Shown here one piece after another: positions 7,023 through 33,397 of a stretch of 33,397 bases of DNA. The stretch is from positions 1 through 33,397 of IMG/VR virus record IMGVR_UViG_3300050821_005361; one strand, written 5' to 3'. This DNA comes from a virus. The notes under the pieces were generated by a model, which did no database searches, was not told where the DNA came from, and saw only the letters and a program-made list of their open reading frames with translations. The position numbers were made by a program, and so were the translations under genes. Each line of letters opens with the position of its first letter. The stretch's first letter is position 1.

Positions 7023-7096
7023 TCCCGGCTAGCTCAAGGGAAGAGCGTTCGGCTGTTAACCGAATGATCGGGGTTCGATTCCCTGGCTGGGAGCCA
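7023..7096 (+). tRNA. tRNA-Asn(GTT)
   Basis: Acceptor TCCCGGC/GCTGGGA, G73, CCA. Stem-loop TTCGG-CTGTTAA-CCGAA gives GTT. Confidence 0.92.
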
Positions 7097-7101
7097 AGTT
7101 T

Positions 7102-7194: not shown

Positions 7195-7200
7195 AGTTTT

Positions 7201-7274
7201 AGCCCGTTAGTTCAATGGTAGAACCGATGGCTTACATCCATCTGACGAGGTTTCGATTACTTCACGGGCTACCA
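7201..7274 (+). tRNA. tRNA-Val(TAC)
   Basis: Acceptor AGCCCGT/ACGGGCT, A73, CCA. Stem-loop GATGG-CTTACAT-CCATC gives TAC. Confidence 0.92.
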
Positions 7275-7281
7275 AAGTTAT

Positions 7282-7357
7282 GGGATCTAGGGCGAGATGG
7301 CGCGCCACCTGACTTTTAATCAGACAAAGCGGAGTTCGAATCTCCGAGGTCCCACCA
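7282..7357 (+). tRNA. tRNA-Lys(TTT)
   Basis: Acceptor GGGATCT/AGGTCCC, A73, CCA. The loop CTTTTAA gives TTT. Its CCA ends 4 bases before the ATG of the next HNH gene. Confidence 0.92.
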
Positions 7358-7361
7358 CTTT

Positions 7362-7883
7362 ATGCCACTGAACGTGCCCGTCCTGAACAGGCTAGTCTTG
7401 CAACTGAATGCGGCGTATGAACCGGTCGCGATTATCTCCGCGAAGCGGGCGCTGACACTCGTGTTCGGCGGGAAGGCCGTCGTGGAAGAAGTGTCGGCGC
7501 ACGTCGTTAGGACTTCGAAGATAACGATTCCGCTTCCGAATGTGATCCGGCTAATCCGGTACCGGCGTGTGCCACGGATAAACCGAAGCGTCTCTCGAAA
7601 AGGCATTATCCTGAGGGACCTGAGCACCTGTCAGTACTGCGGCCAGAAGTTCCCGGTTGGCGAATTAACGATGGATCATGTGATTCCGCGATCGCGCGGC
7701 GGCGGATCGACATGGGAGAATCTGGTCGCGGCTTGCTTTGAGTGCAACAATCGCAAGTCGCAACGCACACCGGCCGAAGCTGGGATGCCGCTGTTGAAGC
7801 AGCCAAGCAGGATTGGAATTCACGCGAAGCATAGGCTTATGGCCGGAGATTCTGTGGTATGGGACAAGTATCTCTTCGTGTAG
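7362..7883 (+). CDS. HNH endonuclease (McrA-like, 173 aa)
   Basis: The N-terminal half (LNAAYEPVAIISAKRALTLVF, then VIRLIRYRRVP) matches the common bacterial and phage HNH protein of about 170-180 residues. The nuclease core is CQYCGQKFPVGELTMDHVIPRSRGG...NLVAACFECNNRKS near residues 88-128, with two zinc Cys pairs, the DHV catalytic His and the terminal N. The ATG is 4 bases after the CCA of tRNA-Lys, with no ribosome binding site. The stop is 1 base before the next tRNA, so the gene fits exactly between two tRNAs. It differs in N-terminus from the two shorter HNH genes of the array, so it is a separate acquisition. Confidence 0.9.
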   Translation: MPLNVPVLNRLVLQLNAAYEPVAIISAKRALTLVFGGKAVVEEVSAHVVRTSKITIPLPNVIRLIRYRRVPRINRSVSRKGIILRDLSTCQYCGQKFPVGELTMDHVIPRSRGGGSTWENLVAACFECNNRKSQRTPAEAGMPLLKQPSRIGIHAKHRLMAGDSVVWDKYLFV

Positions 7884-7884
7884 T

Positions 7885-7960
7885 GGGCGCGTCGTCTAAG
7901 AGGATAAGGCCTCGGTCTTCTAAATCGAGAATGGCAGTTCGAGTCTGCCCGCGCCTACCA
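7885..7960 (+). tRNA. tRNA-Arg(TCT)
   Basis: Acceptor GGGCGCG/CGCGCCT (first pair G-U), A73, CCA. Stem-loop TCGGT-CTTCTAA-ATCGA gives TCT. The dispersed palindrome starts on the base after CCA. Confidence 0.92.
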
Positions 7961-7978
7961 ACGTCTGGATCAAGATGT
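7961..7978. repeat. dispersed palindrome copy 4
   Basis: ACGTCTGGATCAAGATGT, directly abutting the CCA of tRNA-Arg(TCT) and 8 bases before tRNA-Trp. Confidence 0.85.
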
Positions 7979-7986
7979 AAAAATGC

Positions 7987-8060
7987 AGGAGCGTTGCCGA
8001 TGGTGAGGCTAGCGGCCTCCAAAACCGCGATTCGGGGTTCGAATCCTCGCGCTCCTGCCA
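7987..8060 (+). tRNA. tRNA-Trp(CCA)
   Basis: Acceptor AGGAGCG/CGCTCCT, G73, CCA. The loop read as CTCCAAA gives CCA with T33 in place; the alternative framing (TCC, Gly) would lack T33. The base pair closing the loop is a C-A mismatch. Confidence 0.85.
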
Positions 8061-8067
8061 AAAAGTT

Positions 8068-8274
8068 ATGCAACCGAAGCTGATCACAGATCGCGTAACA
8101 GTTGAACCGTGCAATATCGGCATGGGATACTTCTACCGTGGTGAATGCTTTGCTTATGTGTGGGCGTGCAAGGCGTTTTCCAGCCAGTGGTGGAAGAACC
8201 TTCTGGTCCATGCCGGAAGGTCAACGCAGGATCTGTTGAAAGCTGGGGCTATTGCGAGAAAGGTAAAACGATGA
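8068..8274 (+). CDS. small protein of unknown function between tRNAs (68 aa)
   Basis: The ORF fills the space between tRNA-Trp (ends 8060) and tRNA-Gln (starts 8281). Its ATG is 7 bases after the CCA, with no ribosome binding site. The protein is rich in aromatic residues (GYFYRGECFAYVWACKAF, WWKN) and ends in a basic helix (LLKAGAIARKVKR). No family is recognised. Its close fit to the tRNA borders and the matching placement of the two flanking HNH genes support it as real. Confidence 0.5.
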   Translation: MQPKLITDRVTVEPCNIGMGYFYRGECFAYVWACKAFSSQWWKNLLVHAGRSTQDLLKAGAIARKVKR

Positions 8275-8280
8275 TTATAT

Positions 8281-8356
8281 TCCCTTGTCGTTCAATTTGG
8301 CAGGACGCCTCACTCTGGATGAGGAGATCGGAGTTCAAGCCTTCGCGAGGGAGCCA
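8281..8356 (+). tRNA. tRNA-Gln(CTG)
   Basis: Acceptor TCCCTTG/CGAGGGA, G73, CCA. Stem-loop CCTCA-CTCTGGA-TGAGG gives CTG. Confidence 0.9.
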
Positions 8357-8364
8357 ATTTCATT

Positions 8365-8823
8365 ATGCCGTATCGAGATAAAGATCGACAACTCGCAGCC
8401 CAACGCGAATGGATGGCCAAACGTAGAGCCGAATGGTTTGCAGCGAACGGACCATGTCGGGACTGCGGAAGTACTGATGACCTAGAGATTCATCATCGTA
8501 ATCAGGCCGATAAGATCTCCAACCGCGTTTGGTCCTGGACGGCAAGCAAACGTATTGTAGAGCTTTCCAAGTGTGATGTTCTCTGTTCGCCTTGCCACAA
8601 GAAGGAGACTGCCCGCCAATATCGGGAGAAACGGCCCGAGCACGGAGCAACTGAATACAGAAACGGTTGCCGATGTGATATATGCATACGGGAAGCCGTT
8701 GAACGAGTTCGCCAATGGAGACAACGCACTAAGGGCCAACAATCGTCCACAGCGCCAAGAATAATCCCCTACTCCGGGGTCCGTCAACTGGCAGGCGAGC
8801 GGCCTTTGAAGTCGCGAATCTAG
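8365..8823 (+). CDS. HNH endonuclease overlapping a tRNA gene (152 aa)
   Basis: The nuclease core is CRDCGSTDDLEIHHRN...SKCDVLCSPCHKKETAR (about residues 31-84), with HH catalytic residues and two Cys pairs. A second Cys-pair region, NGCRCDICIREAVERVRQW, follows. It resembles the antisense HNH gene at 5216-5740 in order and spacing, including the shared RVWSWTASKR/IWTWALTKR block, so the two are probably paralogues. The ATG is 8 bases after the CCA of tRNA-Gln(CTG), with no ribosome binding site. The last 51 bases run in sense through tRNA-Gln(TTG), so the C-terminal tail is encoded by the tRNA. Confidence 0.88.
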   Translation: MPYRDKDRQLAAQREWMAKRRAEWFAANGPCRDCGSTDDLEIHHRNQADKISNRVWSWTASKRIVELSKCDVLCSPCHKKETARQYREKRPEHGATEYRNGCRCDICIREAVERVRQWRQRTKGQQSSTAPRIIPYSGVRQLAGERPLKSRI

Positions 8824-8847
8824 GTTCAAATCCTAGCCCCGGAGCCA
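8773..8847 (+). tRNA. tRNA-Gln(TTG)
   Basis: Acceptor TCCGGGG/CCCCGGA, G73, CCA. Stem-loop GCGGC-CTTTGAA-GTCGC gives TTG. Its 5' half is also the 3' end of the HNH gene. Confidence 0.92.
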
Positions 8848-8848
8848 T

Positions 8849-8923
8849 GGACTGTTAGCTGAGATGGTGTAGCGTCTGGTTGAAGCCCAGAAGACGCGGA
8901 TTCGAGCGCCGCACAGTCCACCA
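8849..8923 (+). tRNA. tRNA-Phe(GAA)
   Basis: Acceptor GGACTGT/ACAGTCC, A73, CCA. Stem-loop TCTGG-TTGAAGC-CCAGA gives GAA. The T-stem has one mismatch next to the loop. Confidence 0.88.
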
Positions 8924-8930
8924 ATTTTGT

Positions 8931-9004
8931 GAGGGCGTCTTCTAACGGTAGGAAGAGAGATTTTCAATCTTTTAATGCGAGTTCAATTCTCGCCGCCCTT
9001 ACCA
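8931..9004 (+). tRNA. tRNA-Glu(TTC)
   Basis: Acceptor GAGGGCG/CGCCCTT, A73, CCA. Stem-loop AGAGA-TTTTCAA-TCTTT gives TTC. It is the last tRNA; the dispersed palindrome starts on the next base. Confidence 0.9.
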
Positions 9005-9022
9005 ACATCTTGATCCAGACGT
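9005..9022. repeat. dispersed palindrome copy 5
   Basis: ACATCTTGATCCAGACGT, abutting the CCA of the last tRNA and 10 bases upstream of a -35 box. Confidence 0.85.
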
Positions 9023-9032
9023 AAACTTGCGC

Positions 9033-9061
9033 TTGACACACGGCTACTTTGTGCGTACACT
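9033..9061 (+). promoter_or_regulatory. strong sigma70-like promoter
   Basis: TTGACA (9033-9038), a 17-base spacer and TACACT (9056-9061). It would drive the gene at 9148 with an 80-base leader. ATG at 9067 in that leader opens a 16-codon ORF ending at 9117, which could be a leader peptide. Confidence 0.8.
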
Positions 9062-12738: not shown

Positions 12739-14667
12739 TTGGAATACGCTCCACGCGGCCCTGTCTATCGCGAAAAATCCGGCACCGCCGATTTTTCTGA
12801 CCGGTACGACCAAAAATGTTCGGAATATCGCGTAGCTATGCGCGAGAAGGCCGAGCACATGCAGCGGCTTAATGCCGAGATGAGCCGGGTCGGAAAGTAC
12901 ATCGAGGCTCTTCAGGGGCATCACTGGTCTCCAGGCATCGGCGGCGTGCGCCGACCGAGGTATAAATCGCACTTCGTCGATAACCGCGTAGCAAAGACCC
13001 GCTACGACGATCTGGCGCAGTTGACTGATGCCCGCCCGACGATCGATATCACGACTTCCGTTGACGCCTACCAGGACATCGCCAAGACGCTGGACTTTCT
13101 GATCCACCATGAGTGGGTTCGGAACAACATCGATTTGACACTGGTGACGGCGGCGGATATCTGTAAAGCCTACGGTACGGCGTTTTGGAAAATGGGCGCT
13201 GCGAAACCGGGCATCACTCGGATTCTGCCATGTGGGCCAGATCAAGTCTTGCCTATCAATCCAGATTTCAGCATCCAGGGCTCTTCTGCGGTCCTCTACC
13301 GCACGTGGAAAGACCCGATCAAGCTGAAGCGCCAGTTCCCCCTGTGCGCAGCCTATATCGAACAGGAAGCCGATCAGGCTCCCGTCTTCGGGCTCTCGGC
13401 CGGCGACTCGACGTACCTGAGGCCGGCGCACATCGACCAGTACACCTGGAACGCGCTTAATCCAGGCTTGCAGCTCAGTCTGAGTCGCGGCGTTCGCAGT
13501 GCTTCCGTGCAACCCGGCCCCATGGGGACGATGTTCAACAGCCTGGAGTGCGAAGAGTACTGGATTGACGATCCAACTGAGAACAATTCCCTCAATAGTG
13601 TCATTGTTCGAGATCCCTATCTTAACATTGACGCCCATAACTGGTGGTACGAGGTCTCTCCCGGAAAGCCGCTCTACCCCCGTAAACGACTGATGACATT
13701 CGTGGGCAAGCGGGTGGTCTACGACGGGCCTTCGCCGTTTTGGCACGGTCTCTATCCGTTTCCGTGCTTGCGCCTTAACCCGGTGTTTTATAGCTTTTGG
13801 GGGCTTTCGAAGTATCGTGACCTGATGCCCATAAATCAGGCCATAAACGAGATAGTTGCTGGCATTTTGGACCTAATCAAGCGTGTTTTGAACCCGACTT
13901 CTGTATCGAAAGAAGGCGCAATCCACAGCGCTGCGTGGAAGGAATTCTTCCCAGATATTCCAGGCATGAAGCTGAAGGTCACTGCAAACACGAATCCAGC
14001 AGATGCGGTAAAATTTATGGATTCGCCAGTTATACCCCCGTTCGTTGCGCAATTGCTGATCGAGTTTCTTGGTCCAGAGTACGATCGGATCGCCGGCAAT
14101 GTCGATGTCCAGGCCCTGATGAAGAAAGCACAGGTCCCTGGCGGCGACACGATCGATCAAATGCGCGATGCCATGCAGACAGGACTCCGCCTGGAAGGCC
14201 GCATGACTGAGGTATTTCTTCGGGACGCCGGCGTTCAGGCCATGTCTAACTTTTTGCAGTTCTACACGCCCGAGACAATGTTGGCGCTCATGGGTGAAGC
14301 GGGAATCACCGCCGCGACGTTTAACGGCAATTGGGACTCTGCTATACCTGGACCAGACCATACACGCCCTGATTTCTTTAAGAACTTCGCCCTTGGAATA
14401 GAACCAGGCAGCTTGCACGCTGGAGCGCACGATAAAGCGAAGATGGTAGCAATTACGCTTGCCCAGTCAGGCTTAATTTCTCGCCAGCAGCTTTACCGTA
14501 CCCTTGGATTTACCAACGGCCCACAAATTTTGAGTGAGATAGCACAGGAGAACCAGCCCCATCCAAACGCCGATCCTAATGATCCCGACCCGCCGCCGTT
14601 TGTGCCCCCTGCTAGCGGGCGCAATGCGCGGCAAACGCGTTCGGCGAGAAACGGCGCTCCGGTTTAG
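12739..14667 (+). CDS. portal (head-tail connector) protein
   Basis: At 642 residues, the size, the helical N-terminal region (REKAEHMQRLNAEMSRVGKYIEAL) and the later INQAINEIVAGILDLIKRVLNPTSV segment fit podo- or sipho-type portal proteins. These form the dodecameric ring at the head vertex through which the terminase packages DNA. The conserved-looking middle includes IHSAAWKEFFPDIPGMKLKVT near residue 395 and a stem-like VPGGDTIDQMRDAMQTGLRLEGRMTE near 470. The C-terminus is Pro/Asp-rich then basic. The start taken is TTG at 12739 with CGGAG about 6 bases upstream. It is the last plus-strand gene before a convergent switch, and its stop overlaps that of the minus-strand gene. Confidence 0.7.
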   Translation: MEYAPRGPVYREKSGTADFSDRYDQKCSEYRVAMREKAEHMQRLNAEMSRVGKYIEALQGHHWSPGIGGVRRPRYKSHFVDNRVAKTRYDDLAQLTDARPTIDITTSVDAYQDIAKTLDFLIHHEWVRNNIDLTLVTAADICKAYGTAFWKMGAAKPGITRILPCGPDQVLPINPDFSIQGSSAVLYRTWKDPIKLKRQFPLCAAYIEQEADQAPVFGLSAGDSTYLRPAHIDQYTWNALNPGLQLSLSRGVRSASVQPGPMGTMFNSLECEEYWIDDPTENNSLNSVIVRDPYLNIDAHNWWYEVSPGKPLYPRKRLMTFVGKRVVYDGPSPFWHGLYPFPCLRLNPVFYSFWGLSKYRDLMPINQAINEIVAGILDLIKRVLNPTSVSKEGAIHSAAWKEFFPDIPGMKLKVTANTNPADAVKFMDSPVIPPFVAQLLIEFLGPEYDRIAGNVDVQALMKKAQVPGGDTIDQMRDAMQTGLRLEGRMTEVFLRDAGVQAMSNFLQFYTPETMLALMGEAGITAATFNGNWDSAIPGPDHTRPDFFKNFALGIEPGSLHAGAHDKAKMVAITLAQSGLISRQQLYRTLGFTNGPQILSEIAQENQPHPNADPNDPDPPPFVPPASGRNARQTRSARNGAPV

Positions 14668-15870: not shown

Positions 15871-16224
15871 TCACGCCGCCTCGGCCTCGACGAAAGCCTT
15901 GACGATATGCCGAAACAAAAAGTCTTTGGCTTTCTGCTCGGCCGGCAAGTCGGCGAACGCGACCAAGCATGGGTGAGTCTTGGCGACTGGATCTTTGATA
16001 GGGCCAAGCTTCCAGCCTTCGCGCAGCTTATGTTGCGACCAAGCCTCGTGCTGCGCCAACGGGCCGACATTTGGGTGCGCGATTGCGAACTCCACCCCTT
16101 TCAGGGCCGAGTCTCTTTGCCATTGTTCGGCCTCTTCCCATGACTTCTGGGAGTGATCTCCGATTGATTCACAATAGGCCAAGTTGGCGGCGTGACATAC
16201 GCGAGCGATTTGTTCTATGTTCAT
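15871..16224 (-). CDS. RyR-domain protein
   Basis: The 117 residues match the small phage and bacterial proteins built around one RyR (ryanodine receptor repeat) domain. The start is MNIEQIARVCHAANLAYC, then GDHSQKSWEEAEQWQRDSA and GVEFAIAHP, a GWKLGPIKD loop, and HPCLVAFADLPAEQKAKDFLF at the end. In eukaryotes the domain forms part of calcium channels; in phages its role is not known, though nucleotide-like ligand binding has been suggested for related domains. It lies next to the Acb2/Tad1-like gene in the same operon, which hints at an accessory or anti-defence role (inference). Confidence 0.85.
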   Translation of the reverse strand: MNIEQIARVCHAANLAYCESIGDHSQKSWEEAEQWQRDSALKGVEFAIAHPNVGPLAQHEAWSQHKLREGWKLGPIKDPVAKTHPCLVAFADLPAEQKAKDFLFRHIVKAFVEAEAA

Positions 16225-18452: not shown

Positions 18453-18854
18453 TTACAGCACTATCTCTAAATGCCCAGGATCGAAGGACGACCGCGTCTC
18501 TCCCACTGGCGGCAAGCCGATGTCATGCCAATCCATCCCGCTGCGCATCCCAAGCGCCACGCCAGCCTGCGCGATCTGCCACCAGAGCGGCCCGGTCGGA
18601 TTCCAGTTCTTCATCGTCAAGTACTCGGTCGGACACAGGTCAATCGCGAGAGACTTACCGTCCGGTGGTTGCGGCAAGTGCTTGGAGTTCTGTGTCCAAC
18701 TTACACCGTTAGCAATGTTCTGGGCTTGCTCGACAGGCGTGCGCAGCGTGTCAATCACAACCACCTTAACGCCTGCGTCAGAGAGGTTGGATAGTAACTG
18801 GTCCACAAGTGGTCTGAATCTGGAATCGAGATCATCTAGTGATTTGCTTGCCAT
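18453..18854 (-). CDS. M15-family peptidase, candidate endolysin
   Basis: The 133-residue protein from ATG 18854 has the zinc peptidase pattern of L-Ala-D-Glu or D-Ala-D-Ala peptidases of family M15. VKVVVIDTLRTPVEQAQ is followed by SKHLPQPPDGKSLAIDLCP, giving the first His and Asp ligands, and DPGHLEI, giving the final His ligand. Such proteins cut the peptide bridges of peptidoglycan at lysis. The length is usual for a single-domain endolysin with no binding domain or signal peptide, so it needs a holin. A Trp-rich loop (GPLWWQIAQAG) precedes the active-site end. Confidence 0.88.
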   Translation of the reverse strand: MASKSLDDLDSRFRPLVDQLLSNLSDAGVKVVVIDTLRTPVEQAQNIANGVSWTQNSKHLPQPPDGKSLAIDLCPTEYLTMKNWNPTGPLWWQIAQAGVALGMRSGMDWHDIGLPPVGETRSSFDPGHLEIVL

Positions 18855-18865
18855 GGCTTTCTTTT

Positions 18866-19066
18866 CTATTCTCCCCTTCTCGCCCGTCTCTTTCTCCACC
18901 AGTCCATGAATGAGCTAAATATGAAAGAGGTGAGAAGCCACCACAGAAGCCAAGGCCAGCTAGCCCAGCGCCCCTCGAAGAGCCGGAATGATCCATAGCA
19001 TAATCCGGCTACTAAGATGGCTACGATCCCGTTGGCGATTACCCTCCCGGCAGCTTCCCCACTCAC
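18866..19066 (-). CDS. small membrane protein (66 aa), second holin candidate
   Basis: The start is set at GTG 19066, which overlaps the previous TGA (GTGA) and has AAAAGGAAA about 8 bases upstream. Two hydrophobic segments, NGIVAILVAGLCYGSF and WPWLLWWLLTSFIFSSFM, end in a basic tail (DWWRKRRARRGE). It lies directly upstream of the endolysin candidate in the operon, a usual position for a holin or antiholin. No family can be named. Confidence 0.6.
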   Translation of the reverse strand: MSGEAAGRVIANGIVAILVAGLCYGSFRLFEGRWASWPWLLWWLLTSFIFSSFMDWWRKRRARRGE

Positions 19067-19224
19067 TTTCGTTTCCTTTTCACGTCTTGATCCAGACGTG
19101 GCAACCCGTTTTTCCAGAACGGACTGCGGCATCCCGTTTTCGGGCAACGCTTCGGATCAGTGCCTCCGTTACGGACGGTCCATTCGTGGGCACAGATATG
19201 GCAACGCCGATAGGCAGAGGTCAC
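19063..19224 (-). CDS. small zinc-ribbon protein, paralogue 1 (53 aa)
   Basis: From GTG 19224, which overlaps the ParB-like stop (GTGA), the peptide reads RRCHICAHEWTVRNGG, then CPKTGCRSPFWKN: a CxxC...W...CPxxxCxSxxW zinc ribbon. The same layout occurs at 24059-24343 and 24391-24552, so these are paralogues. The C-terminal LPRLDQDVKRKRK is encoded by a dispersed palindrome. Such ribbons commonly bind nucleic acid or another protein; the role is not known. Confidence 0.65.
   Translation of the reverse strand: MTSAYRRCHICAHEWTVRNGGTDPKRCPKTGCRSPFWKNGLPRLDQDVKRKRK
19082..19099. repeat. dispersed palindrome copy 8
   Basis: ACGTCTTGATCCAGACGT, with perfect 6-bp arms. It lies at the 3' end of the zinc-ribbon gene and 16 bases upstream of the next GTG start on the minus strand. 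Confidence 0.85.
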
Positions 19225-19994
19225 GCCGCTGACTCCGCGTCGTATTGCTTGCCATCAATGGTCGCTAGGAGACGGCCGCAGAAGGCCCGCACGGCTTTAT
19301 TCTCTGTCGTGTCATCGGCGGCGGTCTGGATAGTCGCACGCAGGGTTTTAACGCTGACTCGCTTAGGCGCGTTGGGATCGCGGAGACTTGCGGCGGTAAG
19401 CGGTTTTCCGCTGGCTAGTTTCTCGCGCTGGATAGCGGCAGACAACTTGGCTAGGCGGCGAGCCGCAGGAGCTTTCAGCGATCCAGCGACCAAGGCTTCG
19501 CGGCCCTCCTTACTGAGTCCTACCAGTTCGCGTGTCTTTTTTACCCAAGCGACATCCTCGCCGAATTCTTTGGCAATTTGCTCGTCATCCATGCCAAATC
19601 TGCCCATTTTTACGATATTGTGGGCATCATCTACAGGATTCTTGCCAGTCCGAAATCGATTGGCGCGAACGGCGGCCAGAAATGCTTCCTGCTCATTACC
19701 GTCAAATGGAACACACTCCAGCCGGAACGTGCTGGGCAAGACGCCGCGCTTCATCCCTTCCTGGACCATCTCCCAGCGGCGGTTTCCGTCAACAATCACA
19801 GGCCACCCGCCATCGGATTTGAACTTTATGGGAGTGTCCTGACCGTAGGCAACGATACTGGCCAACAGGTCTTCATTGTCTTTTTGGGTGGCGCGAACAA
19901 AACGCCCGTTGTACTCCGGGTTAGGTTTTAGATCTTTGGGGGCAATCAGGTACGTCGCGCGGCGCGATGATTCGACTTTCAGGGTGATAGCCAT
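19221..19994 (-). CDS. ParB/Srx-fold nuclease-like protein (257 aa)
   Basis: From ATG 19994, the N-terminal domain has the ParB/sulfiredoxin pattern: LIAPKDLKPNPEYNGR, NEDLLASIVAYGQDTPIKFK and VIVDGNRRWEMVQEG (the GxRR box). Then comes a helical region with MDDEQIAKEFGEDVAWVKKTRELVGLS, a KorB/ParB-type helix-turn-helix. ParB proteins bind centromere-like DNA sites and hydrolyse CTP; phage versions can also be nucleases or transcription regulators. No ParA gene is seen in the window. The 11-copy palindrome is an obvious candidate target, but that link is only an idea. Confidence 0.8.
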   Translation of the reverse strand: MAITLKVESSRRATYLIAPKDLKPNPEYNGRFVRATQKDNEDLLASIVAYGQDTPIKFKSDGGWPVIVDGNRRWEMVQEGMKRGVLPSTFRLECVPFDGNEQEAFLAAVRANRFRTGKNPVDDAHNIVKMGRFGMDDEQIAKEFGEDVAWVKKTRELVGLSKEGREALVAGSLKAPAARRLAKLSAAIQREKLASGKPLTAASLRDPNAPKRVSVKTLRATIQTAADDTTENKAVRAFCGRLLATIDGKQYDAESAA

Positions 19995-19995
19995 A

Positions 19996-20421
19996 TTACT
20001 TTTCCGCCTTGTTGGCAGATTCAACGGACTTGACTTCGGCCTTCGCCAAGCGGCTTTGCAATTCTCCAGAAATGAACATATCGAAGTCGATAGCGGCTTC
20101 AACCATGGCCTGCATTGTCGCCGGTTGAATAACAGGGCCGTTATGACGCTCGCGATCATGACTGATCGCATTGTACATTTCGGCGTCTTTAATGATTAGT
20201 TTGTCGTACGCCTGGATTGCCAGTAGCAAAGCGGTCGTGCGGCGTTTTTCCTCTTTGGTGAGATCGAGCGTGGCTTTAGTTGGGTCAAACGCAACATTCT
20301 GGTCTTCCAGTATTTGCATATCGGCCACTTTGCCGTCCTTGCCAACCGCTACAATCTGAGGATATGGTTCCGGTAGTTGCTTTGTCATCTTGTCAGTTTC
20401 CGCCTGCATAAATCTTTCCAT
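19996..20421 (-). CDS. unknown protein upstream of the ParB-like gene
   Basis: The protein is charged and helical (MTKQLPEPYPQIVAVGKDG, LTKEEKRRTTALLLAIQAYDKLI, HNGPVIQPATMQAMVEAAIDF). It is separated from the ParB-like gene by one base, so they form an operon. ATG codons 1, 5 and 12 are all possible starts. A TTGACA at 20440-20435 on the minus strand lies upstream, with only a weak -10 (AAAGAT) at 17 bases, which would favour a later start. No family is named. Confidence 0.6.
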   Translation of the reverse strand: MERFMQAETDKMTKQLPEPYPQIVAVGKDGKVADMQILEDQNVAFDPTKATLDLTKEEKRRTTALLLAIQAYDKLIIKDAEMYNAISHDRERHNGPVIQPATMQAMVEAAIDFDMFISGELQSRLAKAEVKSVESANKAEK

Positions 20422-25980: not shown

Positions 25981-26006
25981 TAAGCCTCTGGGGAGGGGGC
26001 TAAACG

Positions 26007-26315
26007 ATGGTGGTAAGTACAGAAGTTTTCGGGATTCGCAAGTTTCGGGCGACTCCTGGTTATCAGGCTGACGTGATGGTGGTTTATGCGATTCCGGCCA
26101 CTGAAGACTGGCTCATACCTGTGGGGGCTGAGGGATTAGGGGATGGCTCCTGGCGGTTCGTCGTGCGGGTTGGCTATGCCTTTGGTGATGTCAGCTTTGC
26201 GCGCCAACATGCGCTAGCAGTGCTCGCCGATCATCCCACCTGGACAGCTCATTTGTACCGCGTTACCGGCGAGTACATCGGGGCTCTCTTACAGGAGGTT
26301 CCCGCCAATGGCTAG
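26007..26315 (+). CDS. unknown protein upstream of the AAA+ ATPase (102 aa)
   Basis: The sequence is beta-rich (VVSTEVFGIRKFRATPGYQADVMVVYAI, then WRFVVRVGYAFGDVSF). It begins at ATG 26007 after GGGGAGGGG, which may serve as a ribosome binding site, and overlaps the ATPase start by 8 bases. It may act with the ATPase, but no family is recognised. Confidence 0.6.
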   Translation: MVVSTEVFGIRKFRATPGYQADVMVVYAIPATEDWLIPVGAEGLGDGSWRFVVRVGYAFGDVSFARQHALAVLADHPTWTAHLYRVTGEYIGALLQEVPANG

Positions 26316-27492
26316 CCCTTTCAAGACTTTCCCCAGCCGTTTCGATGGCAAATGCGCCTCTCCGACGTGTGAGCGTGGCGGTAAAGTGCGGCGCGGTCAA
26401 TTGATCCAGTGGAATCCGGACGTTAAGGGCTGTGTGTGGCATATCGAATGCCCGGTTCCCGATGCGAATCAACAAGCTAAAGCGGCTGCGGATGAGCGGA
26501 CATCACGCGATCAAGGGCCGTTGCATGAAGCTGCGGCAGAAGCCCAAGAAATCACTCCTGCGGTTCCTGTCAATCGTGGCGATGCTTCTAACCCTCTGGG
26601 GGCCTTCGCAGAGGCTCTCTTGCCGTTCCTGGAGTCGAAGCTACAGGGTCTTGTGAATGAGGCACAGGTTGAAGCAATCCTCAACCGGGCTCTGGGTGGG
26701 ATGGTTCTAACCAAAGTCAATCGGGTTGAACTTCAAGACCATCAAACCGGGACTATTCGGGATATGGGCCTACAGCATGAACTGTTTCCACTGTTGCTTG
26801 GGGCCTGTAATGCCCGTACCTCAGACGGCTTTCGGCTCAATATCTGGCTAACAGGTCCGGCCGGATCTGGCAAAACGACGGCCGCGCAGCGGGTTGCCGA
26901 GGCTCTCGGTATACCGTTCTATTTCACTGGATCTATCGACACCGAATACAAGCTGATGGGGTTCATTGATGCCCAAGGGCGCATTGTGAATACGCAATTC
27001 AGGACAGCTTATGAGCACGGCGGGGTCTTTCTCTTTGACGAAGTAGATTCCAGTCTTCCTGGCGCCCTGTTGGCCTTCAATGCGGCGCTAGCAAACGGGC
27101 ACGCGGCATTCCCAGACGGTATGGTAGCGCGGCATAAAGACTTTGTTTGCATCGCTGCGGCTAACACGTGGGGCATGGGTGCAACTTCAGAGTATGTCGG
27201 ACGGCTCAAGTTAGATGCGGCGTTTCTCGACCGCTTTGTACAAATCGCTTGGACGGTTGACGAGGGTTTAGAGCTCGCGACAGCTGGTAATCCGGCCTGG
27301 GTGCAGCGCGTTCAAGTGCTCAGAACTAACGCCAAAGTTAAAGGCCTGAAGGTCATCATATCCCCACGTGCGAGCTACTACGGAGCGGCGCTGCTGGCGT
27401 CCGGTATGGCTCAATCACAAGTTGAGATTCTGGCAGTTCGTAAAGCCATGAGTGACGATCAATGGCGGTCGATTCAGGACGGTGCAAAGTGA
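26308..27492 (+). CDS. MoxR/CobS-type AAA+ ATPase (394 aa)
   Basis: The N-terminus has a Cys/His zinc-type motif (CASPTCERGGKVRRGQ...WHIEC, about 12-50). The AAA+ core has Walker A GPAGSGKTT near residue 188, an EYKLMGFIDAQG loop, Walker B VFLFDEVD near 243, sensor 1 IAAANTWG near 283 and an Arg-rich DAAFLDRFV element. MoxR/CobS ATPases remodel partner proteins, often a VWA-domain or CobT-like protein. The start has a strong AGGAGG site. The stop overlaps the next gene by 4 bases (GTGA), so the two are co-translated. The role in the phage is unknown. Confidence 0.85.
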   Translation: MASPFKTFPSRFDGKCASPTCERGGKVRRGQLIQWNPDVKGCVWHIECPVPDANQQAKAAADERTSRDQGPLHEAAAEAQEITPAVPVNRGDASNPLGAFAEALLPFLESKLQGLVNEAQVEAILNRALGGMVLTKVNRVELQDHQTGTIRDMGLQHELFPLLLGACNARTSDGFRLNIWLTGPAGSGKTTAAQRVAEALGIPFYFTGSIDTEYKLMGFIDAQGRIVNTQFRTAYEHGGVFLFDEVDSSLPGALLAFNAALANGHAAFPDGMVARHKDFVCIAAANTWGMGATSEYVGRLKLDAAFLDRFVQIAWTVDEGLELATAGNPAWVQRVQVLRTNAKVKGLKVIISPRASYYGAALLASGMAQSQVEILAVRKAMSDDQWRSIQDGAK

Positions 27493-28286
27493 TCGCCCGA
27501 TTCGATTCTCTTGGGGATTTCGCGCGGCGCTGTGAAGGCGTCGCGCGGGTCCATCGGCATGATAGCGCCGGGTCTTCCTGGTACGGCGGAATTAGCTATC
27601 AAACCGCGCTGGATCTGGCTACATCTGGAGACGATACGCTCGTCTCTCAAGCACAGCTTTTATTCGATGCCCTGGAAGCGCAGCTAGACACACCACAGGG
27701 CGAATGGACGGCTAGCCCTATCGGGGCATACCCCATCGTTCCTGAAGCGCTGGCGGGGTTGCCTGACTGTATGCGGCGGCGCGTCGAAGTCTCAAACGAC
27801 CATGCGCCGGTTACGGTCTATGTTTCTACGACGTGTAGCGCCTCTGTTGATGCCGAAGCCATGCTCAAAAGAGGCGTTGCGATTCTGGCTCTTGTGATGA
27901 AGCTTCAAGCCATCAGGCCGGTTAAACTCGTGTTGCTGGCTGAATTGCACGGTTCAAGCGATGGTCAGTGCATCCAAGCGATCGAGGTTAATTCTCAGCC
28001 GCTAGATTTGGCGACTGCTTGCTATGCTCTCACGGCTGTAGGATTCGCCCGGCATTTGACTTATTCACTTGCGCGAGAGTTGGACGGGTTTAATGGTTCA
28101 TGGCCGAATAGTTACCACGGTGGGGGCTCTCGGTGGGAGCGGCATATTCGAGAGTATCTGGACATGCAAGAGCAAGACTTATACATCGGGGCGGCGCGTT
28201 CATGGGATGAAGCGCTATCAAACCCGGTCGCGTGGGTGAATGCCCACATTCAACGATTTACAAACAGCGCTTTGGAGGCGCTATAA
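27489..28286 (+). CDS. DUF7192-like partner of the AAA+ ATPase (265 aa)
   Basis: From GTG 27489, the protein reads MIARFDSLGDFARRCEGVARV, SSWYGGISYQTALDLATSGD, and later DAEAMLKRGVAILALVMKLQAIRPV...LVLLAELHG and GFARHLTYSLARE. I recognise this as the family often placed after CobS-like ATPases in phages (DUF7192, from memory). It could be the ATPase substrate or adaptor, in place of CobT. No metal-binding MIDAS motif of a VWA domain is seen. The pair probably forms one functional module. Confidence 0.7.
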   Translation: MIARFDSLGDFARRCEGVARVHRHDSAGSSWYGGISYQTALDLATSGDDTLVSQAQLLFDALEAQLDTPQGEWTASPIGAYPIVPEALAGLPDCMRRRVEVSNDHAPVTVYVSTTCSASVDAEAMLKRGVAILALVMKLQAIRPVKLVLLAELHGSSDGQCIQAIEVNSQPLDLATACYALTAVGFARHLTYSLARELDGFNGSWPNSYHGGGSRWERHIREYLDMQEQDLYIGAARSWDEALSNPVAWVNAHIQRFTNSALEAL

Positions 28287-28289
28287 AAG

Positions 28290-28538
28290 ATGCCGAATGA
28301 AACGGAAGTAACAGCAGTACCCACGGAAGCCGACCGCAAAGAAGCGGCTATCCACATACGCGAGGCGATTTCCTACATGGTCATGATGTGGGATGCCCTA
28401 CGCGAAGCTGAGACGATCCTAGGCGATGACCTAGAAGAAAGTCAGATCAGCGGCCTAGCTTCCACCTGCGATAGCTCGTGTGACGCCTTCAACATCACCG
28501 ATGAGAACATCTGGGAGGTGCTAGATGCCAAAGATTAA
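28290..28538 (+). CDS. unknown acidic protein (82 aa)
   Basis: The protein is acidic and helical (DRKEAAIHIREAISYMVMMWDALREAETILGDD). Three Cys are present near CDSSCDAFN. It starts 3 bases after the previous stop and overlaps the next gene by 14 bases. No family is recognised. Confidence 0.6.
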   Translation: MPNETEVTAVPTEADRKEAAIHIREAISYMVMMWDALREAETILGDDLEESQISGLASTCDSSCDAFNITDENIWEVLDAKD

Positions 28539-28764
28539 CCGCCGATTTCTACCGGATCGTCCCCCGCGCAATACCCAGCGTCAGCTTACGTTATCTGAAG
28601 TCGCTACAATCCTGCATGGCCTTCGCATGATCCAGTGTGAAGGCCGGATCGAAGGGTGTGCGGCTGGCGATTGCGAGCATTTCGAGGAAGGTGCGGCAGC
28701 CTTGACGAATGACGAAATAGACGAACTGTGCGAGGCAATCAACTGCGGGCAGGTGCGGCTATGA
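28525..28764 (+). CDS. unknown protein (79 aa)
   Basis: A basic N-terminus (KINRRFLPDRPPRNTQRQ) leads into a helical part with a Cys group (CEGRIEGCAAGDCEHFEEG). Its stop overlaps the next ATG (ATGA). No family is recognised. Confidence 0.6.
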   Translation: MPKINRRFLPDRPPRNTQRQLTLSEVATILHGLRMIQCEGRIEGCAAGDCEHFEEGAAALTNDEIDELCEAINCGQVRL

Positions 28765-28976
28765 AACTGCCAATTATCAGGGGTATGTACCGGACTCGCA
28801 ACGGCAAAACCGCTAGCGCCTATTGGGTGTGGGGCTCGAATGGTTGCTACATCCGTGGAGTAATTCAGCTAAAAACGAAGACGGTTGAACGCACCTGGAA
28901 TACAAACGACGGTACAAAAGTGTGCTACAGCAACCACGGCAATAACGGCGACGATCTAATCGAGGGGCCGCTATGA
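28761..28976 (+). CDS. unknown protein (71 aa)
   Basis: The start ATG 28761 overlaps the previous stop. The sequence is beta-rich (YRTRNGKTASAYWVWGSNGCYIRG, then KTVERTWNTNDGTKVCYSNHG), with a small-barrel look. Function unknown. It overlaps the next gene by 4 bases. Confidence 0.6.
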   Translation: MKLPIIRGMYRTRNGKTASAYWVWGSNGCYIRGVIQLKTKTVERTWNTNDGTKVCYSNHGNNGDDLIEGPL

Positions 28977-29248
28977 CCGGCGAACGCTACATCACCGATA
29001 GTCTGGACCGATATCCCATCGGCCTATGTCCGAAATGCGCGGGCTCGATTGGGCATGCAGATCTCACACGTAGGGAAGATTGGGCAAGCTGGCCCGGTGG
29101 GGATGCTGATGTAGCATTCCTGTGGACTGCCGAAGGGGAATTAGTCTGCGCGAGCTGTGAGGCTTCCAGGCCCGTTACTGCCGATGTTCAGAGCGGATCG
29201 GTTCAACAAGTTTTTGCGTCGATGGTGCAAATAAATGCCAATCTGTGA
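28973..29248 (+). CDS. zinc-binding small protein (91 aa)
   Basis: Two Cys pairs, LCPKCAGSIG and CASCEASRP, flank a Trp-rich acidic middle (WASWPGGDADVAFLW), so one zinc site is likely. It is coupled by overlaps on both sides. No family is recognised. Confidence 0.6.
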   Translation: MTGERYITDSLDRYPIGLCPKCAGSIGHADLTRREDWASWPGGDADVAFLWTAEGELVCASCEASRPVTADVQSGSVQQVFASMVQINANL

Positions 29249-29540
29249 CCGCTGCGGGTTCACTTTCGGAGAAGTACCGCGCCGCTGGTATACCGGCATT
29301 CCGCCAATAGACGATGTTGCGGCGCATGAGCGGGATAACCCTGGACCCGTCACTAGAACAGACGGCATCAGGCTAGGACGCATCACGGTTAGCAGGGAAG
29401 AAAACCCCGGTGGCGAATACGTAAACGTTGACAACCAAGGAAAGTTATGCTTGTTGGATCGCGATAGATCGCTATTCGCCTTACTTTTGGAGCTGTCCCA
29501 AGCATCATACGCTTGCGGGTGGTCAATGGCGAGATTCTAA
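29235..29540 (+). CDS. unknown protein with N-terminal Cys pair (101 aa)
   Basis: The N-terminus MPICDRCGFTFGEVPRRWY has one CxxC pair. The rest is mixed, with a hydrophobic C-terminal helix (LFALLLELSQASYACGW). The next ATG overlaps its stop (TAATG). No function is recognised. Confidence 0.55.
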   Translation: MPICDRCGFTFGEVPRRWYTGIPPIDDVAAHERDNPGPVTRTDGIRLGRITVSREENPGGEYVNVDNQGKLCLLDRDRSLFALLLELSQASYACGWSMARF

Positions 29541-29638
29541 TGGCACAAGGCTTTACGTCCTGGCTAACTCTTGCTAGTTGCAAATGGGCTGACCGGGCGA
29601 GTTATTATCCGGTGGGGCCGAAGGGGTTGCCGATATGA
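29540..29638 (+). CDS. unknown micropeptide (32 aa)
   Basis: The ORF uses TAATG and ATGA overlaps at its two ends to bridge its neighbours without a gap, which supports translation. The peptide is MAQGFTSWLTLASCKWADRASYYPVGPK at its core, with no motif. Confidence 0.45.
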   Translation: MAQGFTSWLTLASCKWADRASYYPVGPKGLPI

Positions 29639-29847
29639 GCCTAGGCCACAAAACCCCCAAACGGCCTACGTCTGAATCCAGACGTAGCAGCGTGCGCGTC
29701 TTGGACCTGGACGCCATAGAGCGCCTAGCGCAATCGGCGCTCGTGTTCTCAGGTGATGAGTTTCCCGGCTGCGCCTGTCCCATTGGGGCGCGGTGTCGAT
29801 GCTGGCAGCGATGGGAACGGCAGCGCCAAACGCGGGGGATGCTATGA
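29635..29847 (+). CDS. basic Cys-rich small protein (70 aa)
   Basis: A Lys/Arg-rich N-terminus (GHKTPKRPTSESRRSSVRVLDLD) is followed by GDEFPGCACPIGARCRCWQRWERQRQ, a Cys-rich possible metal site. A dispersed palindrome copy lies inside its 5' part. Its stop overlaps the next ATG. Confidence 0.6.
   Translation: MSLGHKTPKRPTSESRRSSVRVLDLDAIERLAQSALVFSGDEFPGCACPIGARCRCWQRWERQRQTRGML
29668..29685. repeat. dispersed palindrome copy 10
   Basis: ACGTCTGAATCCAGACGT. The central GATC is AATC, the only copy without it, and this copy lies well inside a coding sequence. It may be a decayed or chance copy. Confidence 0.55.
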
Positions 29848-30113
29848 AGCAACCGACGCGATACGTCTTCCGCAACGGTGCAGCCATGAAAGACACAGAC
29901 TTAGCTTATTTTCGGAGACTTGCAAAACGTCATGAACTGGCCGAAGAAACATGTAGGGCCTTTCGGCGCGCAGCGACTAAGCGTGTTTGCGAGGGCACAC
30001 AGCAGGAATGGAGCGAGGCGCTAAGGCTGCTAAGGCGCTGGATGGATCTAGCGGGCAAATCGGGCTATGCCGACCCCAAAAGAAAATCACCTGGGGCGAA
30101 TGTTTTCGCTTGA
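29844..30113 (+). CDS. unknown basic helical protein (89 aa)
   Basis: From ATG 29844 (ATGA overlap), the sequence is mostly basic helices (DTDLAYFRRLAKRHELAEETCRAFRRAATKRVCEG, then EALRLLRRWMDLAG). It may bind nucleic acid. The last codons overlap the first half of the promoter at 30081-30139. No family is recognised. Confidence 0.6.
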   Translation: MKQPTRYVFRNGAAMKDTDLAYFRRLAKRHELAEETCRAFRRAATKRVCEGTQQEWSEALRLLRRWMDLAGKSGYADPKRKSPGANVFA

Positions 30114-30139
30114 CAGGTGGTTGAATTGTGGGATATAAT
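30081..30139 (+). promoter_or_regulatory. promoter with upstream 14-bp box, copy A
   Basis: AGAAAATCACCTGG (30081-30094), 15 bases, TTGACA (30110-30115), 18 bases and TATAAT (30134-30139), then TGTAGAC. Both hexamers match consensus. The box and spacing are the same as at 32832-32890. Confidence 0.85.
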
Positions 30140-30178
30140 TGTAGACAGCAAAACGCCGTTTAAGGAGCGGCGAACAAA

Positions 30179-30409
30179 ATGCAATCTGGCGACAAATTCA
30201 GATTCGATCAAGAGGAGTATCGAATTATCTCCTACGATGCGCGTAAGAACCGTTCCAATGTCGCGATTGATCGCGGCTGTGATTCGAATGGCAACGAGCG
30301 AAGAATTGAGGCCGAGAGAATCGGCGGGAGTTTCACACGACGATTTTCCGAAGCTGAAATTGGCGAGACTGCCACGGTCGAAGGCCCTCAGCCTTTGACC
30401 ATTCCTTAG
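30179..30409 (+). CDS. unknown protein (76 aa)
   Basis: It starts after AAGGAG (30162-30167) and is the first gene after copy A of the twin promoter. The sequence begins MQSGDKFRFDQEEYRIISYDARKN and is beta-rich with a charged C-terminus. Its fold could be a small SH3-like barrel, but this is a guess. Confidence 0.6.
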   Translation: MQSGDKFRFDQEEYRIISYDARKNRSNVAIDRGCDSNGNERRIEAERIGGSFTRRFSEAEIGETATVEGPQPLTIP

Positions 30410-30492
30410 TGGCGTGTGAGGAGCTTTGGTTCTCAAATCTCGGGGGAGGTGGAGACCAGAGCCTCTTGCAAGGCATTAAGGAGGCCGAGTAC

Positions 30493-31134
30493 ATGAGATA
30501 CACATTCAGTTGTGCCGAGCATGAGGAGTTCGGCAATTTAGGCTGGCGGCTGATGAGTCAGCCCGATTTCGATCCGCTTTCGGGCATGGCCGTGGCCCAC
30601 GATATTTTAGAGCATTTCCCGAATGGTGACGGCTCGCCCAAAGATGAATTGTTAGCCTTGGGCGCGTCAATCTGGGTGCGTGATGGCTGGCACACGAACG
30701 GCACAGCAGGCGATAACATAGCTCCTGACCTGCAAGAAGTCTTACGGCATGTGACCTACGAAGACATGAGCCTGCCCGATCCGCCCGCAACGAAACCGCT
30801 TGAGCATTACGCCGAGGACGAAATCACAAAGGCTGTTGAGTGCCTTTTACGTGAATCGAAATACAACGGCGAGAAGTACAGCCCATCAACTCTTTCCGCC
30901 GTTCGCGGGTGGCTTAGGATTGGCTACCGCAAAGGTGTAAGGCGCTACAACGGCTGGTATGCCTGCGACGTACAAACGATTTTCAATGAAATCATGCAGG
31001 CTGCGGACAAAGCACTAAAGCACGCCGAGGCTGGCGACCGGCTTGTAGTGTCTTATGCGATCCAACTTCGCAAGCACAATTATCAGTTGAAGGTCCGCCA
31101 CATTCCCGGTTACGAGCTAGGAGAGGAGTACTAA
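30493..31134 (+). CDS. unknown protein (213 aa)
   Basis: ATG 30493 follows AAGGAGG (about 9 bases upstream); the frame is open further upstream but lacks such a site. Conserved-looking segments are GWRLMSQPDFDPLSGMAVAHDILEHFPNGDG, which holds a possible metal-type His/Asp set, and LRIGYRKGVRRYNGWYACDVQTIFN. The C-terminus is helical. This is one of the longer unknowns in the block. No family is named. Confidence 0.65.
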   Translation: MRYTFSCAEHEEFGNLGWRLMSQPDFDPLSGMAVAHDILEHFPNGDGSPKDELLALGASIWVRDGWHTNGTAGDNIAPDLQEVLRHVTYEDMSLPDPPATKPLEHYAEDEITKAVECLLRESKYNGEKYSPSTLSAVRGWLRIGYRKGVRRYNGWYACDVQTIFNEIMQAADKALKHAEAGDRLVVSYAIQLRKHNYQLKVRHIPGYELGEEY

Positions 31135-31136
31135 AC

Positions 31137-31823
31137 ATGCCTGAAATACAAGAATTGTCAGAGTGGGAAATCAAAATACGGGCAGAGCGCAAAGTCAAAT
31201 ATGACACCTATGAGGCACTCTACAATGGCATCGCCGCGAACCTGGAAAACGGCGTGGGCTGGCGCATGGACGAGCGCCGAGACTCAGACGACCCCAACAA
31301 CTTTAATCGAGCCGAGCACCTTCGACTAGTCTCCACAAGCGACCCGCGCATGATGATTGACTTCAATATGCAGAGCGGCGCGAACCGTGGCAAGGTCCAT
31401 GTATCCGGCCACTGGCCGCAAGGCGGCGACAACATGCCATATGTGAGCCCGCGAGATGTCCGCGAGGAATCGCCGAGCATCAATGTCAGCTATGCCAAGG
31501 GATACCCGGCCATCGCCCGCGACATAGAGCGGCGATTTCTGCCGAACTATCGGCGTATCTTCGCTCTGTGCCTTGCCAGCATCGACGCTCACAATAGCTA
31601 TGAAGCCCGCAAGCTTGCCAACTGGCAGCGGGTAGCGGCTGCAAAATGCCTCAAGCAAGACTACCGGCACGATCAGCAGCGAGCTAGTATCAACCTGCCA
31701 AACTCTTATGGGGATGTCCACATGGAGAGCGCCGACTCGGTACACCTGAACATGCGAAGCGTCCCGGTGGATCTCGCTGTAGCGATCTTGGCCGCGATTG
31801 ATGGGCTGCGGGTGAAGGCATGA
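31137..31823 (+). CDS. unknown protein (228 aa)
   Basis: It starts 2 bases after the previous stop. The N-terminal half is charged and helical (EWEIKIRAERKVKYDTYEALYNGIAANLE), the middle has GHWPQGGDNMPYVSPRD, and the C-terminus ends VDLAVAILAAIDGLRVKA. The composition is soluble. No family is recognised. Its stop overlaps the next ATG. Confidence 0.65.
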   Translation: MPEIQELSEWEIKIRAERKVKYDTYEALYNGIAANLENGVGWRMDERRDSDDPNNFNRAEHLRLVSTSDPRMMIDFNMQSGANRGKVHVSGHWPQGGDNMPYVSPRDVREESPSINVSYAKGYPAIARDIERRFLPNYRRIFALCLASIDAHNSYEARKLANWQRVAAAKCLKQDYRHDQQRASINLPNSYGDVHMESADSVHLNMRSVPVDLAVAILAAIDGLRVKA

Positions 31824-31987
31824 CCTTCATAGTCGCCTCACTTCCCCCGCGCCATGCCGTGAGGCTCCAGCGCTTGTCTTGCGAACTACCGGAGGCCGGC
31901 GATTCTGCCGGCCTTCAAGACTTCAGAGAATTTGTTGATCTGGCGAATGAACTGGAAGCCAGAGCGTTTTACCGGGAGGATTCATGA
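31820..31987 (+). CDS. unknown small protein (55 aa)
   Basis: The ORF joins two neighbours by ATGA overlaps at both ends. Its middle contains an 8-bp GC-rich perfect hairpin (31891-31912) that encodes EAGDSAGL. The rest is a helix (FREFVDLANELEARAFY). Function unknown. Confidence 0.55.
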   Translation: MTFIVASLPPRHAVRLQRLSCELPEAGDSAGLQDFREFVDLANELEARAFYREDS

Positions 31988-32232
31988 GCAAGCCTATCGG
32001 CGACCGGGGCCTACGGCAGTACGCGAAATTCAAAATGCGCTGGCATGGCGTTAGCAGGCTGCAAAGTTCAAGCATTGCTTTCGAGGGGCCTTGCGTATGG
32101 CTGTTTACGGAGTTGGCCTACAGCAATCTTCCGGAGGTAAACCCTCCAGCGCTGCACCTGAACAAGCAGGACGCCCGCAGGCTGCGCGATGGCCTTTCAC
32201 GATGGCTGAAAGAAACAGAGGAGAGCGTATGA
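31984..32232 (+). CDS. unknown small protein (82 aa)
   Basis: The start ATG overlaps the previous stop. The sequence is basic at the N-terminus (GDRGLRQYAKFKMRWHGVSR) and ends in a helix (KQDARRLRDGLSRWLKE). The stop overlaps the next ATG. It may bind nucleic acid. No family is recognised. Confidence 0.6.
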   Translation: MSKPIGDRGLRQYAKFKMRWHGVSRLQSSSIAFEGPCVWLFTELAYSNLPEVNPPALHLNKQDARRLRDGLSRWLKETEESV

Positions 32233-32543
32233 TTACCGCGATTTTGAAACTTCAAGGCTGCACCACAAAGCCAGGACGCAGAGCGTTTGTTGGGAAAGAT
32301 TGGCCGCGTCACGGCATTGCAGCCGGGAACATCCGGCATTACAGAGTAATTGCGCCAACATGGGCCGCGATTCGGCGAACGGTCGCGGGCTATGACTCTA
32401 CCGGCGCGAAGACGATGGGATTCACGGGAATCGGCCCGCTCACTGTCGAGAGTTTCAGTGAGGACGGAAGAACCGGCACAGCCAGCGAGATTAGACCACT
32501 GCCGGTGGGCTTCAAGCCCGCTTCAGAGCCCGCTCAGCCTTGA
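32229..32543 (+). CDS. unknown protein (104 aa)
   Basis: From ATG 32229 (ATGA overlap), the sequence is beta-rich (MITAILKLQGCTTKPGRRAF, RHYRVIAPTWAAIRRTVAGY, GIGPLTVESFSEDG). Its 3' end overlaps the converging helix-turn-helix gene by 32 bases. No family is recognised. Confidence 0.6.
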   Translation: MITAILKLQGCTTKPGRRAFVGKDWPRHGIAAGNIRHYRVIAPTWAAIRRTVAGYDSTGAKTMGFTGIGPLTVESFSEDGRTGTASEIRPLPVGFKPASEPAQP

Positions 32544-32817
32544 CGCCATATCGGCCGGCGTCCAGCTTATAGAGTATGAGTGCTCGAAGGTCTTTTACAT
32601 CTTGATCCAGACGTGCGATTTCTTGTTTCAAAGTCTTCCCGGTTAAATGCTCATGATAACGCCGCGCAATCGTATTGACGTACTTCGGAGTGGCTCCCAC
32701 GATACGAGCGATGTCCACCGCTCGCAGTGGGTTGCCCTGAGCATCTCCCTGCGCCAAGAGATACCGGACCTTCGCGTGTTTCGACCCTGGCATTGGTGCG
32801 CCGGTTGCATCGCCCAT
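32512..32817 (-). CDS. helix-turn-helix DNA-binding protein (101 aa)
   Basis: Residues near 32-50 (LRAVDIARIVGATPKYVNTIARRY) read as a helix-turn-helix with a recognition helix, and the C-terminal half is a coiled-coil-like helix (KQEIARLDQDVKDLRALILYKL). The start is ATG 32817 or 32793. It faces the twin promoter copy B across a 14-base gap, so it is the natural candidate to bind the box and regulate its own region (inference). Its 3' part carries a dispersed palindrome copy and it converges on, and overlaps, the plus-strand gene. Confidence 0.7.
   Translation of the reverse strand: MGDATGAPMPGSKHAKVRYLLAQGDAQGNPLRAVDIARIVGATPKYVNTIARRYHEHLTGKTLKQEIARLDQDVKDLRALILYKLDAGRYGVKAERALKRA
32597..32614. 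repeat. dispersed palindrome copy 11
   Basis: ACATCTTGATCCAGACGT, identical to copy 5. It lies inside the helix-turn-helix gene, where it encodes LDQDV, as copy 8 does in its gene. Confidence 0.8.
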
Positions 32818-32831
32818 GCGCCAATCTTACA

Positions 32832-32890
32832 AGAAAATCACCTGGAACACAAGTTTTTACTTGACAAGGCTCTAGCGTTTGGGATATATT
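32832..32890 (+). promoter_or_regulatory. promoter with upstream 14-bp box, copy B
   Basis: AGAAAATCACCTGG (32832-32845), 15 bases, TTGACA (32861-32866), 18 bases and TATATT (32885-32890), then TGTAGAC. The same box and spacing as copy A at 30081-30139; here the box lies between divergent genes. Confidence 0.85.
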
Positions 32891-32920
32891 TGTAGACGAG
32901 AAAAAGGAGAGTTCGACCGC

Positions 32921-33229
32921 ATGAAAAATAAGACGGCAGTAAAAGCAGATCCAGCGGAACGCGCTGTAATTGTGACCACATCCCATCGAGGGATCTTTTT
33001 CGGGTACACGACCGACACAACGGGCGCAATTATAAAATTGCGGGCATGCCGCAATTGTGTCTATTGGTCTTCGGATTTGCGTGGCTTTATGGGCCTTGCC
33101 AGCCAAGGGCCGAACAAGAATTGCAAGATCGGGCCAGCCGCCGATTTCGAGGTAAGAGATATCACCGGCGTTGTAGCCGTCTCGCCTGAGGCAGTTGCGA
33201 AATGGGAATCGGCACCATGGAACGCCTGA
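32921..33229 (+). CDS. DUF6948-like phage protein (102 aa)
   Basis: ATG 32921 follows AAAAAGGAGAG. The sequence KNKTAVKADPAERAVIVTTSHRGIFFGYTTDTTGAI, then LRACRNCVYWSSDLRGFMGLASQGP, and the end VVAVSPEAVAKWESAPWNA match a conserved phage protein I know as DUF6948. It is beta-rich and has no known activity. It is the first gene after twin promoter copy B, so it is likely expressed early. Confidence 0.7.
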   Translation: MKNKTAVKADPAERAVIVTTSHRGIFFGYTTDTTGAIIKLRACRNCVYWSSDLRGFMGLASQGPNKNCKIGPAADFEVRDITGVVAVSPEAVAKWESAPWNA

Positions 33230-33397
33230 TTCTGCGCGGCGATTCGTCCATCTTTCCGGGGGGCTTCTATGGCGATGGCTCTGGCTATGGCTATGGCTAT
33301 GGCTATGGCTATGGCTATGGCGATGGCTCTGGCGATGGCTCTGGCGATGGCTCTGGCTATGGCTATGGCGATGGCTCTGGCGATGGCTCTGGCGATG
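33202..33397 (+). CDS. Gly-Tyr/Asp-Ser repeat protein, truncated at the window edge
   Basis: ATGs at 33202 and 33217 are both in frame; the ORF overlaps the previous gene in another frame and is open at the right edge. After MERLILRGDSSIFPGGFY, the rest is a run of GDGSG and GYGY units, coded by 12- and 6-base repeats of GGCTATGGCGATGGCTCT type. The repeats contain no charged residues apart from Asp. Such low-complexity Gly repeats occur in some metagenomic phage proteins. A role in adhesion or as a flexible linker is possible. Confidence 0.6.
   Translation, partial: MGIGTMERLILRGDSSIFPGGFYGDGSGYGYGYGYGYGYGDGSGDGSGDGSGYGYGDGSGDGSGD

Follow-up and report, generated by a model that had tools for sequence, protein, structure and literature searches.

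Genes of the window and the promoter cassette

The window is a virus record of 33,397 bp (33.4 kb), a genome fragment of an uncultured tailed phage. It encodes the following proteins.

2055-4340, terminase
12739-14664, portal protein
18453-18899, minus strand, endolysin
19224-20171, minus strand, ParB-like protein, with an HTH_ParB domain above the cut-off
26308-27489, MoxR-like AAA ATPase

Among the window ORFs that were scanned, none was identified as ParA. There are 30 predicted tRNA genes within 4.5 kb (4490-9004), which cover 19 amino acids and include none for Met. An RyR-domain protein is encoded on the minus strand at 15871-16224 (PF02026, E-value 2.8e-10), and a copy 60% identical to it is present in another DUF7873 phage contig (L134). 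A tandem repeat of the GGCTATGGCGATGGCTCT type occupies 33267-33397, the right end where the contig breaks.

The same cassette is found on the same strand at 30080-30146 (copy A) and 32831-32897 (copy B), 2.75 kb apart. It consists of AAGAAAATCACCTGG, 15 bases, TTGACA, 18 bases, TATAAT (copy A) or TATATT (copy B), and TGTAGAC directly after. The elements of both copies and the genes beside them are given below.

30080-30094, plus strand, upstream box of copy A, AAGAAAATCACCTGG, at about -66 to -52 relative to the predicted start, overlapping the 3' end of the ORF at 29793-30113
30102-30109, plus strand, GTTTTnnC of copy A, a proximal A/T tract just 5' of the -35, 6 of 8 columns as in copy B
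30110-30115, plus strand, -35 TTGACA of copy A, 12/12 together with the -10
30129-30146, plus strand, TGGGA, -10 TATAAT and TGTAGAC of copy A, to the predicted start
30162-30167, plus strand, Shine-Dalgarno sequence (AAGGAG) of the first gene after promoter A
30179-30409, plus strand, 76-aa ORF behind promoter A, no family match
32512-32817, minus strand, weakly HTH-like ORF of 101 aa, divergent from promoter B, at most a candidate regulator
32831-32845, plus strand, upstream box of copy B, AAGAAAATCACCTGG, between the divergent genes, with the start codon of the HTH-like ORF 13-14 bases away
32853-32860, plus strand, GTTTTnnC of copy B, just 5' of the -35
32861-32866, plus strand, -35 TTGACA of copy B, 11/12 together with the -10
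32880-32897, plus strand, TGGGA, -10 TATATT and TGTAGAC of copy B
32904-32909, plus strand, Shine-Dalgarno sequence (AAGGAG) of the gene after promoter B
32921-33229, plus strand, 102-aa DUF6948 protein behind promoter B (PF22253, E-value 8e-22)

The first-pass annotation had described twin promoters with a common 14-bp upstream box, identical spacing of this box before TTGACA, and agreement of the TATA-containing box and of TGTAGAC. Both copies were checked base by base and bear this description out. The exact 14-mers are present at 30081-30094 and 32832-32845, the shared word in fact extends to 15 bases (30080-30094 and 32831-32845), and 15 bases separate it from TTGACA (at 30110 and 32861) in both copies. 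The spacer between TTGACA and the -10 is 18 bases in both and ends in TGGGA; the -10 elements agree at five of six positions and TGTAGAC at all seven.

Promoters A and B are the two best sigma70-type matches in 26000-33397, and each is followed by AAGGAG, an ATG and a small ORF. Neither copy has the TG of an extended -10 (TGn). The ORF that ends under copy A has its stop codon inside TTGACA, and no regulator or HTH gene adjoins this promoter.

Conservation of the cassette and a dispersed palindrome

The significance of the repeat was assessed with a search for the best non-tandem self-matches of the window, from which the terminal tandem repeat was left out, with 60 dinucleotide shuffles as the control. 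The cassette is the top ungapped self-match (59/85 identical, score 33), above all tRNA paralogues, and the highest score in the shuffles was 28. The 15-bp repeat alone is at about chance level for a 33-kb sequence (we estimate about one), and the 14-mer with up to three mismatches has four matches in the window against 2.5 expected, which is no excess. It is the in-register cassette which is significant, not the exact 14-mer alone. The downstream block TGGGATATAWTTGTAGAC occurs in the window at these two places only, where 0.03 occurrences are expected with three mismatches allowed. A motif search for further copies, a check that the first-pass annotation had named, confirmed the exact pair but gave no third copy in the window, the next best place having 25 of the 49 conserved columns. 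The record ends at 33397 inside the tandem repeat, so further copies may lie outside the window; there is no genome sequence beyond the 33,397-bp record, and a scan of the phage's own genome is a scan of the window itself.

Identity between the copies is confined to blocks. The box is identical at 15/15 positions, GTTTTnnC at 6/8, the -35 at 6/6, TGGGA at 5/5, the -10 at 5/6 and the discriminator at 7/7, while the remaining columns are at chance level (3/13 in the spacer, 1/5 in the gap between box and GTTTT, 17/60 in the upstream and 34/100 in the downstream flank). If one promoter segment had recently been duplicated, with no common regulatory meaning of the box, this would account for two copies on the same strand 2.75 kb apart that form the best repeat in the window. 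We consider such a duplication very unlikely, because in spacer, gaps and flanks the copies are now no more alike than chance predicts and the box is still identical at every position. Near-invariant blocks separated by columns at chance level argue for selection on DNA elements, and the simplest reading is that function has preserved the blocks. Copy A overlaps an ORF at its 3' end, whereas copy B falls between genes, which indicates that the constraint is on the DNA and not on a protein.

A stem-loop or terminator element beside the promoter, made up of the box and its surroundings, is scarcely credible as the common feature. Copy A does fold well as single-stranded DNA (z -3.3), however copy B does not fold (z 0.14), and so the feature common to both is not a fold. 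The inverted repeat CACCTG...CAGGTG that accompanies the strong fold was likewise rejected as a common feature, being present in copy A only.

The window also contains a dispersed near-palindrome, ACRTCTKGATCMAGAYGT (18-bp consensus), in 11 copies where 0.02 are expected; the copies, of 18 bp each, are at 1605, 4347, 6434, 7961, 9005, 12706, 15846, 19082, 23089, 29668 and 32597. Many lie just after the ends of genes or tRNA genes. One is about 120 bp past the 3' end of the ParB-like gene, and at 9005-9061 a palindrome ends 10 bases before the TTGACA of a TTGACA-17-TACACT promoter, which lies behind the tRNA array and points toward a DUF7873 gene. The promoter cassette does not include the palindrome, of which one copy falls within the HTH-like gene and another about 0.4 kb upstream of promoter A. 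A second phage contig of 78 kb (IMGVR_UViG_3300050821_004255) contains at least 18 copies in the part examined. No homologue of the window ORFs was detectable in that contig with tblastn, and no ParB-like protein was found in it, whereas the window encodes one. The palindrome is also present at the loci L082, L084, L085, L089, L091 and L095-L098, and bacterial genomes have single matches only. It may be stoperator-like or parS-like, and it looks more unusual than the promoters.

The upstream box and its candidate ligands

We consider it probable that A and B are two members of one class of promoters for the host sigma70-type polymerase, a class which most likely switches on small phage genes together. 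Host polymerase would read both promoters, probably early in infection, where 'early' is judged from promoter type and position. Transcription is predicted, from the -10 elements, to start near 30146 and 32897, which would place the centre of the box at about -59, to be contacted from the same face of the DNA as polymerase. The region near -59 is where the alpha-CTD of RNA polymerase or class-I activators act. Two helical turns separate the AAAA of the box (about -61) from the TTTT/GTTTT tract (about -41), which fits a contact by the alpha-CTD or a class-I-type activator, and such a contact would make the promoters strong and co-regulated.

Both copies share the A/T tracts, GTTTT by the -35 and AAAA in the box; the CACCTGG half of the box is G+C-rich, unlike an UP element. 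The invariance of CACCTGG suggests a specific protein. Other TTGACA promoters, beside the tRNA genes (5036 and 9033), are without the box, which therefore marks a class and is not needed for every host-type promoter. It counts against such a class that two copies are visible, in a 33.4-kb fragment, and that, with no relative carrying the box found, it rests on one genome.

A rather unlikely alternative is that a phage regulator uses the box as its operator. The simplest candidate is the product of the ORF at 32512-32817, which would bind at its own divergent promoter as well as at A and B and shut them off or switch them. This ORF looks like a real gene, its codon use being coding-like for its strand (17.6 per 100 codons; two competing frames have -14 and -17). 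It is the only supportable leftward gene among rightward ones from 26 kb on, and 13-14 bases separate its start from box B. A weak promoter on the minus strand (TTGTGT-17-TAAGAT, 7/12 matches by our own count) has the box in its spacer and would give a leaderless mRNA for the HTH-like protein. A second contact could be made at the conserved TGGGATATAWTTGTAGAC block.

Against this, the HTH assignment is below threshold, with marginal matches to Pfam HTH_29 (E-value 0.068, below the cut-off) and phrog_357 (E-value 0.025). A single-sequence model of the protein has five helices (mean pLDDT 73, pTM 0.41), a fold search with this model gave no structural match, and the protein as a single query found no relatives in viral contigs. 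The profiles and model thus lend weak support to an HTH protein. The box is without dyad symmetry, no regulator gene adjoins promoter A, and nothing ties the ORF to the box. A repressor near -59 does not by itself block polymerase and would need a second contact. It is decidedly improbable that a phage regulator, the HTH-like protein or another, bridges the box at about -59 and TGGGATATAWTTGTAGAC across the polymerase, as two-site control of otherwise unaided strong promoters.

The first-pass annotation had placed one copy of the box beside a helix-turn-helix gene and proposed an activator or repressor site. The neighbouring ORF holds up as a gene and its HTH identity is marginal. Conservation in blocks, as in binding sites, and a centre at about -59 make such a site plausible, but the HTH link is weak and the box with a promoter was found in no related contig.

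Boxed promoters in other phages and known systems

The box with a promoter was not found in related contigs. A search of all viral contigs for the box with TTGACA gave two matches (L003 and L004), which are not the cassette and have unlike ORFs, and these were taken as chance. The pattern CTTGACA-N16-19-TATAWTTGTAGAC matched five contigs, all of them without the box. A distant search of 26000-33397 against 50,697 phage records found no DNA similarity. Single-query searches of viral contigs with the MoxR-like protein and the terminase found no relatives; a MoxR alignment search gave 68 loci, which beyond MoxR mainly have a neighbouring DUF7192 gene in common. Neither the boxed promoter nor the palindrome family was found at 22 DUF7873 loci. 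The nearest proteins of named phages are distant: MoxR has 50% identity over 70% to a protein of Sinorhizobium phage phiM5 and 34% identity to one of Tunturiibacter phage Tunturi_4, and the terminase is below 26% against named phages. If the class is real, a phage for which no close sequenced relative was found would gain a defined promoter class with a candidate regulatory word, and so a handle on its temporal gene control.

Upstream sequences of strong promoters were compared within and between 74 loci, with a threshold of at least 26 identical bases in 45. Pairs at this level made up 13 of 451 comparisons within loci (L009, L028, L065 and the window) and 6 of 17,315 between loci. This excess within loci indicates that boxed promoters recur among phages as families, with a different word in each. 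L065 and L028 have three copies each and L009 four or more, most of them shortly 5' of an ORF start. In L065 (9535, 17435 and 17753) and L028 (3958, 4947 and 6187), each an uncultured phage, the three promoters are near-identical and their upstream words are long and well kept. These contigs resemble the window pair in having a conserved upstream word in register, at three or more strong promoters per contig; they differ in that each phage has its own word, none of which resembles AGAAAATCACCTGG.

Paired promoters with a common upstream box are an arrangement of a known kind in phages. In lambda-type divergent repressor/operator regions a small gene is likewise divergent from a strong promoter, as the possibly HTH-encoding gene is here. 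Such operators are dyad-symmetric and overlap the promoters, whereas the window has one non-palindromic box per promoter at about -59, 15 bases 5' of the -35, and no repressor family match. In T4 middle promoters the MotA box replaces the -35; both window copies have a perfect TTGACA.

The early promoters of T4 have near-consensus -35 and -10 elements, UP elements and extra conserved positions (PMC2988021), and of the 57 early promoters predicted in RB69, 13 precede novel ORFs (PMC1524935). The window pair resembles these T4 and T4-like promoters in its near-consensus -35 and -10, in the sequence kept 5' of the -35 and around the start, and in being repeated before small or novel ORFs. It differs from T4 early promoters in that it has no TGn, a box further upstream, a fixed word containing G+C and an 18-bp spacer; two copies are visible in the window fragment, and the phage shows no relation to T4. 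By analogy the pair would work like T4-type early promoters, but we do not assign it to that family. Strong host-type promoters that recur with an upstream word particular to the phage are a familiar design, seen again here in other phage contigs.
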